A stretch of DNA of 64,000 nucleotides, taken from the NCBI GenBank assembly GCA_017964005.1, contig JAGCSR010000031.1:1-64000 (forward strand), read 5' to 3'. Position 1 is the stretch's first letter, and each line of letters opens with the position of its first letter. Below the pieces are notes generated by a model. It saw nothing but the letters and a program-made list of their open reading frames with translations. It searched no databases and was not told the origin of the DNA. This DNA is from Clostridiales bacterium (GTDB lineage: Bacteria; Bacillota; Clostridia; Saccharofermentanales; Saccharofermentanaceae). Positions 48,903 through 63,628 of this stretch are shown one piece after another. The position numbers and the translations under genes are program-made.

Positions 48903-49052
48903 CTGATACAAGAGGTTCGGTGCCAAAGTGATGCCGAACTTCTCTTCATATTGTGATAGACTAAAACTCATAAAATACTGAACTACCAATGCGGTGATTG
49001 CGCATGAGGCATGGTTGTAAGTAAGACAGCAGGCGACTTTAGGAGTTTTGTT

Positions 49053-50096
49053 ATGCAAAAGTTGTTTAGGAAACAAAAATCAGGTTTTGCCCTTGTGACG
49101 ATCCTTCTTATCGTTACCATGCTGTCTGCGTGTTCTGTTTCTCATGAGGATAAAAAGATTCCCGTAAAGGTACTGATCCTGCCCAAATTCGAGCAGGAAG
49201 AACTTACGGGGGATTTCCCCGGAGAGGCACAATTCTTCTTCGACGGATACCTTAAGGGAGGAGAAGAGTATGAGATCGGGCAAGGCTCTGATAAGAACAA
49301 GCTATATTACAAAGACGGTATCGCAATGTGCATACTGGGTCAGGGGAAAGTTAATGCGGCGTTAAACACATCAGCCGTTCTGTCTGACTCAAGATTTGAT
49401 CTTTCTGATGCATATATATTGTCTATTGGCTGCGGCGGTGCTGCGGAAGGATACGCGATCCCCGGAGATGTCTTAGTTATAACTGCTATAGCAGACTTTG
49501 ATCTCGGACATTGGACGGATGCAAGAGAATTAAGCAGCGAGGACGGGAAGACGTGGTTTCATGACGAAAGCTTCGATGACATAGCATTTGTCAAGCTTAA
49601 CAAAAGCCTTACGGACCGTGTATTCGAACTAACTAAGAATGTGAAGCTCGATACAACAGAGAGAACGGAAGCCTTCATTCAGAAAGAGTATCCCGGGGAA
49701 GAGTGGGCAGACCGTAAGCCACGGGTAATGCGCGGTTCATCCGTCACGGGAGATCAGTACTGGAAAGGTATCTACGGACATAAGACCGCGCAGATGATAA
49801 CGGAAACATATAACCTGGAAGATCCTTTTGCCGTAACAGAGATGGAAGATCTTGCGGTCGCCCAGGCAGCAAAGCGCTATGGAATGTTGGACCGCCTGAT
49901 CGTTCTGAGAGTCGGAGTAAATATGGATGTGTTCCCGACAGGCATTTCACCCGAGATGATCTGGGATCCCCAGACAGATGATCACGTTGCATCGGAAGGC
50001 AGTTTGGAATCGATCGATATTTTTGAGACTGCAATGAAGAACCTTTTCGAAGTTGGCAAAGTGGTGATAGATCATCAGATCGCGGCCGATAGATAA
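49053..50096 (+). CDS. Purine nucleoside permease (NUP) family lipoprotein
   Basis: 347 aa from ATG 49053, which has AGGAG upstream. Lipobox MLSAC. The rest matches the NUP family named after a yeast nucleoside permease: VKVLILPKFE, GEAQFFFDGYL, ILSIGCGGAAEGYAIPGDVL, ADFDLGHWTDA, and near the end VLRVGVNMDVFP. The fold is that of nucleoside phosphorylases, so an extracellular nucleoside-binding or phosphorylase-like role is possible. It is convergent with the XRE-HD gene, across the GTATACC array. Confidence 0.85.
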   Translation: MQKLFRKQKSGFALVTILLIVTMLSACSVSHEDKKIPVKVLILPKFEQEELTGDFPGEAQFFFDGYLKGGEEYEIGQGSDKNKLYYKDGIAMCILGQGKVNAALNTSAVLSDSRFDLSDAYILSIGCGGAAEGYAIPGDVLVITAIADFDLGHWTDARELSSEDGKTWFHDESFDDIAFVKLNKSLTDRVFELTKNVKLDTTERTEAFIQKEYPGEEWADRKPRVMRGSSVTGDQYWKGIYGHKTAQMITETYNLEDPFAVTEMEDLAVAQAAKRYGMLDRLIVLRVGVNMDVFPTGISPEMIWDPQTDDHVASEGSLESIDIFETAMKNLFEVGKVVIDHQIAADR

Positions 50097-50135
50097 TAGA
50101 GTATGAGGTTTATGCAACTTCGCTCTGATCATTCT

Positions 50136-50433
50136 GTATACCAAATGCGTATAAATGAGAGAATGGGATACCGGCAATATACCAAATAATTGAATTAGTA
50201 TGGTTTGGTATACGTCGTGTATGCCAAATTGGGAAATTTAATCAGGATGGTATACATTTTTATCCTCGAAAAACTGTTCCGGCAGATGACGATATATATT
50301 TTTGGGGCTGGTGTATACCGAATTATCGAAAATGCGCATTATGGTATAACAAGTTGTATACCATTCCGATATAAATCAATTTGCGGTATATCGTGAGTAT
50401 ACCAAAGCAATAAAATTGCAGGGGAAGGTATAC
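50136..50433. repeat. Array of eleven GTATACC half-sites
   Basis: Copies of GTATACCAAA or its complement TTTGGTATAC, with 0-3 mismatches, at 50136, 50177, 50204(-), 50219, 50246(-), 50313, 50341(-), 50356, 50383(-), 50397 and 50424(-). After the first two, the strands alternate strictly. Close pairs form dyads such as TTTGGTATAC-N5-GTATGCCAAA (50204-50228). They fill the 347-nt gap between two convergent genes, where there is no gene and no U-run terminator. The motif is unknown to me; a cluster of protein-binding sites is the simplest reading. Confidence 0.8.
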
Positions 50434-50443
50434 ATAACTTTGA

Positions 50444-51259
50444 TTACATAAGTCTCTTGTAGATGTCAAGCATGCTGTCCATCTGATATCGGAGGAGCCA
50501 GGCAGCGTTGTTGTAGGGAAGATAGTCCTTGATCACTGCGATAAGTCTGGGAAAGTATTCTTCGGTCTCGCGGATAGTACGGTATATGCGTTCACGGCTC
50601 AAGCCCCTCGCAATCGTCGTCATGTTATCGCATCTGTCGATGCACTTGATAAGACAGGCTTTGGGGTCAGTTGCTATAGCATCGAAGTATGCTCTCATTA
50701 CAGAATCTCTGTTGGAAGGAGTTGTTTTTGAGTGGGTAAGCAATCCGACGAGTTTACGTGTATCGTCGCTGACAGGTAGTTCATCTAATGTCTTGCCGCA
50801 ATCCTCGACTACATCGTGGAGCAGGCATGCCGCGATGATATCATCTTCGGTTATGCCCATTGCCAGAGCGTGACAGGCCAAAGTCAGAGGATGATAGATG
50901 TAGGGGACTTCAGATTTCTTCCGTTTCTGTCCTTCATGAGCGCAAGTTGCGTATTCCACGGCCTTGAGGCTGTCGGTAAGACCCAGGTTCTTGCAGGTCG
51001 TCTTAATGAAGGTCTTCATGTGTTCCCAGTTGTAGATGGAATCTTTTACTGTAAAGATACCTTCACGTTCTTCGACAAGAGCTGACAGTGATATATCGAA
51101 AAGCTCGGCAAGCTTGATGAGCTTATCTATATCGGGACTGTACTCGCCTCTTTCCCAGGATGACACAGCTTGGAAACTGACCCCTACCGCATCTGCCACC
51201 TGCTCCTGCGTAAGTTTGCGTTCCTCACGATATAGCCTGATATTCTTGCTGATATTCAT
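50444..51259 (-). CDS. XRE regulator fused to an alarmone-hydrolase-like HD domain
   Basis: 271 aa. Residues 1-62 are an XRE helix-turn-helix (LTQEQVADAVGVSFQAVSSWERG). Residues of about 95-265 resemble the (p)ppGpp hydrolase domain of RelA/SpoT and MESH1: AHEGQKRKK, YIYHP (His123), LLHDVVED (His148, Asp149) and KCIDRCDNMTTI (Asp208), all four metal ligands in place. It could sense or degrade alarmone while binding DNA. Its start overlaps an 84-aa gene by 4 nt. Its 3' end meets the GTATACC array. Confidence 0.85.
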   Translation of the reverse strand: MNISKNIRLYREERKLTQEQVADAVGVSFQAVSSWERGEYSPDIDKLIKLAELFDISLSALVEEREGIFTVKDSIYNWEHMKTFIKTTCKNLGLTDSLKAVEYATCAHEGQKRKKSEVPYIYHPLTLACHALAMGITEDDIIAACLLHDVVEDCGKTLDELPVSDDTRKLVGLLTHSKTTPSNRDSVMRAYFDAIATDPKACLIKCIDRCDNMTTIARGLSRERIYRTIRETEEYFPRLIAVIKDYLPYNNAAWLLRYQMDSMLDIYKRLM

Positions 51260-60250: not shown

Positions 60251-61927
60251 ATGAGAAAGAGTATGTGTGCCGCGGCAGCGGTTGTCATGCTGATCAACGC
60301 GTTTTGTCTGACTTCCTGTTCTCCGGGGAAAGTCACACCCAAACCCGATCCTTCGGACACATCCGGGACCACGGTTACGGCTGCCGCATCTGAGACAACG
60401 ACAGAAACTTCGGCGGAGGAGACGACTGAGGCAACAACGGAAACATCCGAGACGAGTATTCAGACTCTTGTGACACCTCCGGATAAGGGCTGTCAGATAG
60501 CTTTCCCGACAGGTGATGTCTATAACTACGATATGGATCTCAAGTTCGATCCGGATAAGAAGACAGTCGGTGGGCATGTTGTTTTCGAGTATTTCAACGA
60601 TTCGGAAGATACCTGGAAGAAGCTGTGCATGAGGGATTATCCTTCGCTTTTTGCAGAAGACGGTTCACACGGCAAGAATTCCGATGGCGGAATTACCGAG
60701 ATCGAAAATATCGAAGATGATAAGTGCGGCAAGCTCAAATACAAAAGAGATAAAGAAGATGTCTCGGTCCTCTGGATCGATCTGTCCGAGCCTTTAAAGC
60801 CGGGTGAGAAGCGTGTCCTGTCATATGACTTTACTGCCAAGATACCTGCTGTTGCCGACAGGTTCGGCTACTATAAAGACATCTATAACGTTACGAACTT
60901 CTATCCCATTCTTGCCGAATACAGGGACGGCGCATGGTCACATGAAACCTTCTCCGATACAGGCGAATGCTTCTATTCCGAGATATCAAACTACAAGGTC
61001 AAACTCGATGTTCCGTCAGGTTATATCGTCGCATCATCCGGAGAAGAGATCGATTCATCCGAGAAGGACGGGATCCTTACCTACAACTTCGAAGCGCCCT
61101 TCGTAAGAGACTTCGTATTCTGCGCCGGAGACAAGCTCAAGAAGGAACAGAAGCAGCTGGGCGATGTCATGGTCAATGTCTATTACAACGAGGCGGACAA
61201 ACCCGATATCGATTTGGACAAGCTCGTTGAGAAGACTTATAAGACTGCGGATATCTCTCTTACGACATATAACAGCGAGTTTGGCAAGTATCCTTATGAT
61301 GAACTCGATATCCTTTATGCAACCATTGCGGCAGGCGGAATGGAATATCCGAATCTTGTTATCATCGATAATTCCGAGGCTGAGACACTGGCAGATGACG
61401 CTCACGTAGTTCACCTGGAGATGGATATATGCCATGAGATCGCGCACCAGTGGTTCATGAATATCGTCGGATCTGATTCGGGCAGGGAGCCGTGGCTCGA
61501 TGAGACCCTTGCATCCTATGCCGAGATATTGTATCTGCAGGAGTCCGGTCAGGAAGAGAATTCACACATCACATGGGTAAGCCGTGAACGTTTTGACCTG
61601 AGTGCTGCGGACGAATCCAAACCGGATTCCATGCCTCACGGAATGTTCGAGACTGATACGGATTATATTGATCTTGCCATAGACGAGTATAAGGATGATT
61701 TCAACTACATAAACAACATCTACGGTCTCGGCAAGGCGTTCATGTATCAGACAGAACAGCTGATCGGCAAGGAAGAACTGCATGCCGTGATCCGCGCTTA
61801 TGTCCAGGCAAATGCTTTCAAGAACGCAGACACGGAAGATTTCTTCGAGGTCTTCTACAAATACTTGGGTCACGATAACGATAAGGTAGAGAACATGATA
61901 GACATGATGTTTTCTACTTTGGACTGA
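60251..61927 (+). CDS. M1-family metallopeptidase lipoprotein, copy 1
   Basis: 558 aa. Lipobox CLTSC, a Thr/Glu-rich stalk (about 30-75), an N-terminal beta domain (YDMDLKFDPDKKTVGGHVVF), then the M1 catalytic domain with substrate motif AAGGMEYPNLVI and zinc site HEIAHQWF (395-402) followed by WLDETLASYAE. It is probably an aminopeptidase or related enzyme on the outer face of the membrane. A paralogue of the same length follows 24 nt later. Confidence 0.88.
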   Translation: MRKSMCAAAAVVMLINAFCLTSCSPGKVTPKPDPSDTSGTTVTAAASETTTETSAEETTEATTETSETSIQTLVTPPDKGCQIAFPTGDVYNYDMDLKFDPDKKTVGGHVVFEYFNDSEDTWKKLCMRDYPSLFAEDGSHGKNSDGGITEIENIEDDKCGKLKYKRDKEDVSVLWIDLSEPLKPGEKRVLSYDFTAKIPAVADRFGYYKDIYNVTNFYPILAEYRDGAWSHETFSDTGECFYSEISNYKVKLDVPSGYIVASSGEEIDSSEKDGILTYNFEAPFVRDFVFCAGDKLKKEQKQLGDVMVNVYYNEADKPDIDLDKLVEKTYKTADISLTTYNSEFGKYPYDELDILYATIAAGGMEYPNLVIIDNSEAETLADDAHVVHLEMDICHEIAHQWFMNIVGSDSGREPWLDETLASYAEILYLQESGQEENSHITWVSRERFDLSAADESKPDSMPHGMFETDTDYIDLAIDEYKDDFNYINNIYGLGKAFMYQTEQLIGKEELHAVIRAYVQANAFKNADTEDFFEVFYKYLGHDNDKVENMIDMMFSTLD

Positions 61928-61951
61928 TGATATGGTAAAGGGGGATTACAA

Positions 61952-63628
61952 ATGAAACATAAGATATCATTAACACTTATAGCTTTGGCGCTTACAGGTT
62001 CGATGGCTCTGTCATCGTGTTCGCTTGTCAAGCCTTCAGAAACAACAGAAGAGACCACTGCAGCTTCAACAACAGAAGCAACTATGACCGAGAGCGCATC
62101 TGAGAGTACAACGGAATCAGAGACTGAGGCTACAACGACTACGTCTGAGACGACCACATCCGAGACGAGAGTAATAGAACCCATAACGCCTCCCGAGAAG
62201 GGCTGCGCCATCGAGTTCCCGGACCGTGAAGTGTACGATTACAAGATGGACCTCAAGTTCGACCCTAAGGATCAGACGATAGGCGGGCATGTTGTTTTCG
62301 ATTTCTATAATGATTCAAAGGATACCTGGAATGAACTGTGCCTGAGGGATTATCCATCACTGTTCGATTCCGAGAAAGTTTACGCAACGGGCCTGAAGAA
62401 GGGCGGCGGATTGACCGTGATAAGTAATATCAAGGACAGCAGGTCCGGGTCTTTGTCTCATAAACGTGATGGAAGCGATGTGTCGGTGGTATGGATAGAT
62501 CTCGATAAGCCTTTGGCGCCTTCTGAGCACATGACACTGGAATACGACTTCGTTACCATGATCCCCAATAACCCCGACAGGTTCGGCGTGTACGGCGGCA
62601 TCTATAACGTCTGCAACTTCTATCCTATCCTGGCGGAATATGTTGACGGCGGCTGGTCCCATTTGCCTTACATCTCGGAAGGTGAGTGCTTCTATTCCGA
62701 GATCTCAAACTACCATGTTACGATCGAAGCTCCCAAGGCATATACATTTGCTTCTACCGGAAGCGAGGTGTCGTCCGACCAGTCCGGAGATAACCTGATC
62801 CATAAGTTCGAGGCGCCGTTCGTAAGAGATTTCGTGTTCAGTACCTGCGAGTTCTATGAGAAGAAGACGAATAAGTTGGAAGGCGTTGATGTCAATGTGT
62901 TCTACAGTTCCGACAAACCTGCGCAGCTGGAGATGAACGGAGTAGTGGATGTGTGTTTTAAGACTGCCGAGACTTCATTGAAAGCATTCGGCGATGCTTT
63001 CGGCAAATACCCGTATGCGGACCTCGATATCGTCCTGTCGGAACTTGCGGCAGGAGGAATGGAATATCCGAATCTCGTTATCATCACGAACGATGTCTGC
63101 CATGACTATGTCAGGATGTTCAGATCCTACGATCAGCTGGAGGTATGTCTTGCACACGAGATCGGACATCAGTGGTTCATGGGTATAGTCGGATCCAATT
63201 CGGCAGCCGAACCCTGGCTTGATGAATCTATTACATCCTATACGGAACTTGTTTATTACGAGTATGTAGGAGGAAAGCAGTTTGAGAATCAGGTAATGGG
63301 ATACACCAGCAAGGATTGGGATATGTCGGCGCTGGACAGGGACAAGGACGAGAACTCAGGCTATTATGTTGATTCCCCGTACTCGGAGTTTGCTACCGAT
63401 ATGGACTATGTCAGTATGATCTACGGTACCGGCAAGGGCTTCTGTTATCAGATGGAAGAAGCGGTGGGGCGCGATGAGTTCCACGGGGCCCTTCGTGCAT
63501 ATGTGCATAAGTATGCCTTCACGAATGCCAATACCAAGGACTTCCTTGCGGTCCTTTACGGGGTTGTCGGACGAGACAACGACAAGCTTAATAAGATCAT
63601 CAACAATATGCTCCGCACTAAGATCTGA
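61952..63628 (+). CDS. M1-family metallopeptidase lipoprotein, copy 2
   Basis: 558 aa, a paralogue of the preceding gene over the whole length. Lipobox LSSC, Thr/Glu-rich stalk, the same beta domain (YDYKMDLKFDPKDQTIGGHV), LAAGGMEYPNLVII and zinc site HEIGHQWF (402-409) with WLDESITSYTE. The divergence in the stalk and the signal peptide shows that the duplication is not recent. GGGGGA precedes the ATG. The two copies are probably cotranscribed. Confidence 0.88.
   Translation: MKHKISLTLIALALTGSMALSSCSLVKPSETTEETTAASTTEATMTESASESTTESETEATTTTSETTTSETRVIEPITPPEKGCAIEFPDREVYDYKMDLKFDPKDQTIGGHVVFDFYNDSKDTWNELCLRDYPSLFDSEKVYATGLKKGGGLTVISNIKDSRSGSLSHKRDGSDVSVVWIDLDKPLAPSEHMTLEYDFVTMIPNNPDRFGVYGGIYNVCNFYPILAEYVDGGWSHLPYISEGECFYSEISNYHVTIEAPKAYTFASTGSEVSSDQSGDNLIHKFEAPFVRDFVFSTCEFYEKKTNKLEGVDVNVFYSSDKPAQLEMNGVVDVCFKTAETSLKAFGDAFGKYPYADLDIVLSELAAGGMEYPNLVIITNDVCHDYVRMFRSYDQLEVCLAHEIGHQWFMGIVGSNSAAEPWLDESITSYTELVYYEYVGGKQFENQVMGYTSKDWDMSALDRDKDENSGYYVDSPYSEFATDMDYVSMIYGTGKGFCYQMEEAVGRDEFHGALRAYVHKYAFTNANTKDFLAVLYGVVGRDNDKLNKIINNMLRTKI

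Follow-up and report, generated by a model that had tools for sequence, protein, structure and literature searches.

The window analysed here, that is, the whole stretch of 64,000 nucleotides, contains an array of inverted repeats in a gap between two convergent ORFs, one of the NUP family ending at 50096 and one for a protein with an XRE-type HTH and an HD domain (XRE-HD) ending at 50444. The gap is free of genes, in agreement with the original prediction. The features of the locus are as follows, the two neighbouring genes being given for context only:

49011..50096, plus strand: left neighbour, ORF of the NUP family (PF06516), ending 40 bp before the array
50136..50433, unstranded: whole array, six inverted-repeat units in two blocks of three
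50136..50171, unstranded: unit 1, GTATACC-N22-GGGATAC, with one imperfect arm
50177..50213, unstranded: unit 2, ATATACC ... GGTATAC
50219..50255, unstranded: unit 3, GTATGCC ... GGTATAC
50256..50312, unstranded: centre between the blocks, 57 bp without a half-site
50313..50349, unstranded: unit 4, GTATACC ... GGTATAA
50356..50391, unstranded: unit 5, GTATACC ... GGTATAT
50397..50433, unstranded: unit 6, GTATACC ... GGTATAC, exact in both arms
50444..51259, minus strand: right neighbour, ORF with XRE-type HTH and HD domains, its stop 11 bp from the array

By a motif scan of the window we observed seven exact copies of GTATACC or GGTATAC within positions 50130-50440 (311 bp) versus two in the other 63.7 kb, which corresponds to 22.5/kb in the array and 0.03/kb in the rest of the window. 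The eventuality that GTATACC would be as frequent elsewhere, which had been named as fatal to the original prediction, is thus not what was found. Any other 311-bp stretch of the window contains at most one exact half-site, and the maximum reached in 5000 composition shuffles of the array was four. When arms with one mismatch are allowed, the array comprises 12 half-sites on strictly alternating strands (+50136, -50165, +50177, -50207, +50219 and -50249 in the first block; +50313, -50343, +50356, -50385, +50397 and -50427 in the second). They form the six units of 36-37 bp, GTATACC-N22/23-GGTATAC, repeated with a period of 41-43 bp. Adjacent units are separated by 5-6 bp, hence the N5/N6 dyads described earlier; the two that had been located at 50204-50228 and 50341-50365 are both present, and a further one lies at 50383-50405. 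The cluster of eleven half-sites initially reported is therefore real but its count has to be raised to twelve, the missed one being probably GGGATAC at 50165, and when this copy is included the strands alternate from the first copy and not only after the second one. The reading of the array as an unusual cluster of sites, probably for a DNA-binding protein, stands, as does the statement that it does not serve promoter autoregulation, the array lying away from any promoter; no promoter-like or terminator-like site was seen beside it. Given its diverged arms, this copy may be a relic. Elsewhere in the window, at 60443-63241, a pair of stretches at a distance of about 1.7 kb shows piecewise identity of 73-76% and probably represents tandem paralogous genes.

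The array had also been proposed to be a decoy or titration array of the adjacent XRE-HD protein, and we considered an autoregulatory site of this protein along with it. The idea is suggested by adjacency only, the end of the array being 11 bp from the stop codon of the gene. We examined it in a sample of 85 draft genomes of the genus (64-100% complete), among which the genome containing the window, G000, is a 2.46-Mb assembly of 61 contigs. We found the XRE-HD gene in 25 of the 85 genomes, G000 included, and none of its 26 other loci has a GTATACC array behind it, on which ground we rejected this idea; one paralogue in G019 is followed by an array, with a different half-site. In addition, none of the other three arrays of this type in G000 was seen to adjoin an XRE-HD ORF. 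The adjacent protein is thus very unlikely to be the cause of the array, and we give its use as a decoy practically no chance. Instead, this type of array goes with a nuclease-like gene, which we call X.

Pattern and similarity searches of G000 revealed three further arrays with the same two-block layout, in L024 (contig C22), L025 (C13) and L026 (C48). At most positions, the half-site offsets of the four arrays differ by no more than a few bases, the L026 array having a 10-bp insert and one extra unit, and the sequence between the half-sites is mostly dissimilar. Three of the four have no X alongside. The fourth begins 8 bp past the stop codon of an X gene (G000:C22:206322-207113, or L024:3320-4114), and from its half-site and its layout the window array belongs with this gene. 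With a sequence profile of one three-unit block, we found such arrays in further species of the genus too, about ten in G019, four in G067 and several in G028. The arrays of G067, one linked to X and three orphan, have CTATACC...GGTATAG in common, with the half-site changed on both arms. A CGAAAA-like core is enriched within the units, yet it occurs in 12% of them only. G-rich 5-nt dyad loops noted in G000 were dropped as a feature, because they come from a small sample and from a layout that lacks an orientation. Two other sequences were noted in these searches. A 6.3-kb viral contig contains four GGTATAC-N5-GTATACC dyads (L092:275-573), three of them spaced by about 64 bp, in an unrelated context. 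A second palindromic element, AGATC...GTCAAC/GTCAAG...GTTGAC/CTTGAC...GATCT, recurs in G000 and G028 immediately 3' of X genes or of arrays (L024:4464-4550; L199 and L198, downstream of X; L203).

The protein encoded by X has about 265 amino acids, with a PD-(D/E)XK-like nuclease domain in its C-terminal half that matches the nuclease domain of PADLOC PDC-S68 (E 5e-25). The signature VRSKSE...PDF...EH-G is invariant; among 64 sequences, E163 and D193 are conserved at 100% and E208-H209 at 98%. The catalytic signature of PD-(D/E)XK enzymes is therefore present in a variant form, since a His replaces the Lys. We found no family match for X in Pfam or NCBIfam, no transposase match in Pfam, NCBIfam or PHROGs and no sequence match in the PDB. 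X occurs in 82 of the 85 congeners in 1-12 divergent copies each, the copies being often 40-50% identical to one another, and it is under purifying selection (dN/dS of 0.09-0.47 in close pairs). Among 398 sampled genomes of the phylum, near-full-length X was found outside the genus in four only, from another family of the same class, and most of these copies have private arrays too. Phages carry only the nuclease domain, fused to RecD-like helicases (phage contigs L236-L244), and no arrays were found by these helicase-nuclease genes.

The link between X and the arrays was measured with a detector of units made of a word and its reverse complement, applied to the surroundings of 65 X loci, which are paralogues and hence non-independent samples. 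At least two units were detected beside X at 52 of the 65 loci, against two of the 65 X gene bodies and three of 65 Markov shuffles; for at least three units the figures were 33, zero and zero. The remaining 13 loci have no array by this detector. Almost all lineages of X have a half-site of their own. Reading the flanks of X revealed half-sites private to single copies, such as GATACACA, TTTAGTCGAAA, TTTGGGATGA, TTTAGTAGAA, TTTGGTGCAAA, TATACGGA, GGTCCAC and others. Yet another private half-site was seen in G106 (contig C22, L288), where a copy of X has an array TCAGACTACCA...TGGTAGTCTGA just upstream.

For a prospective test, three half-sites were picked from X-linked arrays and then scanned in the 85 genomes. 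TCATCCC-N-GGGATGA gave 37 units in its owner G019, five of them beside X, and at most one unit per genome elsewhere, except in G063, which has three, two of them flanking an X. For TTTCGACTA-N-TAGTCGAAA we found three arrays in its owner G000, one of them beside X, and none in the 84 other genomes. TTATCCC-N-GGGATAA was present as 49 units in G016 and six in G093, both owners of such an X, and at most once per genome elsewhere, except for 56 units in G106. Many dispersed arrays of the three half-sites are thus found almost only where the matching X is present, with one exception: in G106 (78% complete), none of the four X copies that were read has a TTATCCC array by it. Likewise, G028 (92% complete) has GTATACC arrays and no matching X among the copies read. 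These two genomes are either true exceptions or cases of assembly gaps. Altogether, that the window array is a member of this family is well supported, and it is almost certainly an orphan of the X-linked arrays.

The half-sites do not simply follow the phylogeny of X. The three X genes with GTATACC-type arrays are not grouped in the X tree, so half-sites must drift or converge, and half-site distance is only weakly correlated with X distance (Spearman 0.20, Mantel p 0.012), indicating that specificity drifts fast. In G019, arrays of a related half-site, GGGATGCA/TGCATCCC, abut a TCATCCC array (L252:220-420), and the array behind the XRE-HD paralogue has this same half-site pair (L286), which suggests half-site drift.

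We observed that the periods of the units cluster near 42, 52, 63, 74 and 84 bp (41-43, 50-53, 59-66, 74-76 and 83-85 bp), that is, about 4, 5, 6, 7 and 8 turns of B-DNA. Most successive units of the X-linked arrays are 50-53 bp apart; in the window array and its G000 sisters the distance is mostly 41-43 bp. The argument rests on the separate clusters, since the phase statistic reflects mainly the 52-bp class, and 10.5 bp does not stand out in it. Steps of whole turns are expected for proteins bound on one face of the helix and unexpected for RNA. They make a folded 3' RNA element, another of the proposals in the original prediction, less likely, although the array folds as a single strand better than its shuffles on both strands (z of -4.7 and -2.8). 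We did not count this folding as evidence because any set of inverted repeats folds well and the score cannot separate an RNA from DNA dyads. A more specific version would have the array transcribed and acting as an RNA, for instance as the RNA of a type III toxin-antitoxin system such as ToxIN, in which the toxI repeat of 36 nt is present 5.5 times (PMC5086642); repeat units of about 36 nt that precede a nuclease gene are reminiscent of this arrangement. However, the units are palindromic with a free inner sequence, some arrays lie 3' of X, many orphans have no X and the window array lacks a promoter-like or terminator-like site. Moreover, Rfam gave only chance-level matches for the window array and no family at the gathering score for the sister arrays, and X has no match to ToxN in Pfam. 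Altogether, an RNA function appears improbable to us.

A scan of the sequence collection raised the idea of the array as a cluster of operators for a repressor of the BlaI/MecI/CopY family, since the same GTATACC half-site is found in Lachnospiraceae promoters of BlaI-type genes. Some 20 of 30 database matches to GTATACC-N-GGTATAC-N-GTATACC are promoters, most of them of such genes, and G000 itself has seven BlaI-family genes, with GTATACC in the promoters of two. CopY/BlaI-type operators keep the dyad TAC-N4-GTA (TACANNTGTA, PMC7253601), one site per promoter and mostly with N4 in the promoters that we found, whereas the dyads of the window array are N5 or N6, in a set of six units away from any promoter; furthermore, X-linked sister arrays have entirely different half-sites. 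We therefore rejected this idea on dyad spacing and context, and it is hardly tenable. As a separate observation, a set of promoters from Lachnospiraceae and their relatives, the majority belonging to repressor genes of the BlaI/MecI type, have in common an extended operator, TTGACA..GTATACC-N-GGTATAC-N3/4-GTATACC (L062, L064, L065, L067, L069, L070, L072-L074, L076-L083, L085 and L086).

Arrays were also found to be copied as a whole to new intergenic sites. In G019, two pairs of arrays are near-identical in unrelated flanks (231 bp at 98.7% and 320 bp at 98.1%), and the copied pieces extend 15-50 bp past the array; terminal inverted repeats are absent from them, and no clear target duplication was seen. 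Several near-identical arrays lie at contig ends, as expected of recent copies. For the orphan arrays with both neighbours assessable, a simple longest-ORF rule gave eight convergent, six codirectional and three divergent gaps. In G028, we observed an IS-like, MITE-sized repeated element with inverted ends GGTTCTTCACGGAATTC that carries a four-unit GTATACC array and a long hairpin (L094:1-489, L096:4736-5200, L097, L098 and L099). Arrays could be passive cargo of MITEs derived from insertion sequences, as the G028 copies within this element would have it; but no such ends are present in the window array, in its sisters from G000 or in the copies of G019, and the half-site tracks X and not an IS. 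The terminal inverted repeats and target duplication that define a MITE are absent from the window and G019 copies, only the G028 element having inverted ends, and we find transport by MITEs very hard to accept as a general explanation.

X genes and arrays thus co-occur, with half-sites matched within genomes. Our preferred reading, which we hold to be probable as a whole, is that the arrays form a helically phased family of inverted repeats adjoining X genes, with a half-site common to both, of which the window copy is a dispersed member, and that X drives their spread. From these patterns, we infer that X binds DNA and spreads the arrays. X would read the half-sites on double-stranded DNA, with one dimer per 36-bp unit, and along an array several dimers would be aligned on the same side of the helix. 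The PD-(D/E)XK-like domain of X would cut or join DNA, such that the arrays spread or stay uniform within a genome; when an X lineage drifts to a new half-site, its arrays would follow. We lean slightly towards such a spreading mechanism. In this view, the copy in the window would be either a target that is still maintained or a relic of one.

The chief rival to spreading by X is a stationary system, in which X binds phased arrays for regulation, for chromosome organisation or as a defence nuclease held in check, the copies arising by ordinary recombination. The X-linked arrays of at least three units are mostly 5' of X (28 upstream and six downstream), as operators would be, helical phasing is compatible with cooperative binding, and the nuclease domain of X resembles that of the candidate defence proteins PDC-S68. 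Nevertheless, arrays are also found 3' of X, many are distant from X, in gaps between convergent or codirectional genes, and whole arrays have been copied into unrelated flanks. A stationary system is, in our opinion, rather unlikely, and we retain spreading by X.

X may belong to a new kind of repeat-enzyme system, with a large PD-(D/E)XK-like family in which each member has its own half-site, spreads or maintains its arrays in trans and diversifies together with them; we are evenly divided on this generalisation. If X acts on the arrays, it would offer a second, independent answer to the question posed by REPINs and RAYTs, of how a chromosomal enzyme sustains a population of extragenic repeats, and the enzyme would be of a nuclease type that is not known to play such a part. 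The many paralogues of X, taken with their matching half-sites, would then be ready-made specificity pairs for the study of DNA reading and for tests of co-evolution between enzyme and repeat. X-linked arrays also account for a class of intergenic repeats that breaks assemblies in this genus.

A partial search of the literature found no published description of X with its arrays. Several known systems share some of their properties. Like the RNA repeats of ToxIN, the arrays adjoin a nuclease gene and are often upstream of it; however, X is not ToxN-like by Pfam, and the repeats are inverted, of variable period, 3' of X at six loci and often orphan. The RecD-like helicases of the PADLOC PDC-S68 type have a C-terminal PD-(D/E)XK-type domain homologous to that of X, which carries its own N-terminal region of about 150 amino acids instead of the helicase. 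The closest resemblance is to the REPIN-RAYT system (RAYT, REP-associated tyrosine transposase), in which separate groups of repeats, each beside its own single-copy gene, are thought to co-evolve with it (Bertels & Rainey 2011, PMC3116915). As in that system, the X arrays are extragenic inverted repeats dispersed within one genome, each repeat type has one cognate enzyme gene adjoined by a repeat (G106 and G028 excepted), and the gene of a DNA-processing enzyme diversifies together with its repeats. In contrast, X is PD-(D/E)XK-like and not a Y1/HUH tyrosine transposase, its repeats are arrays of 2-8 units with arms of about 7 bp spaced by whole helical turns, and there are usually several X lineages per genome. 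Since its enzyme is not the one that defines REPIN-RAYT systems, X is not a member of them; together with its arrays it would rather be a functional counterpart of RAYTs and their REPINs that employs an unrelated enzyme. X and its arrays therefore look like an undescribed repeat-plus-enzyme system, which resembles REP/RAYT and is distinct from it.
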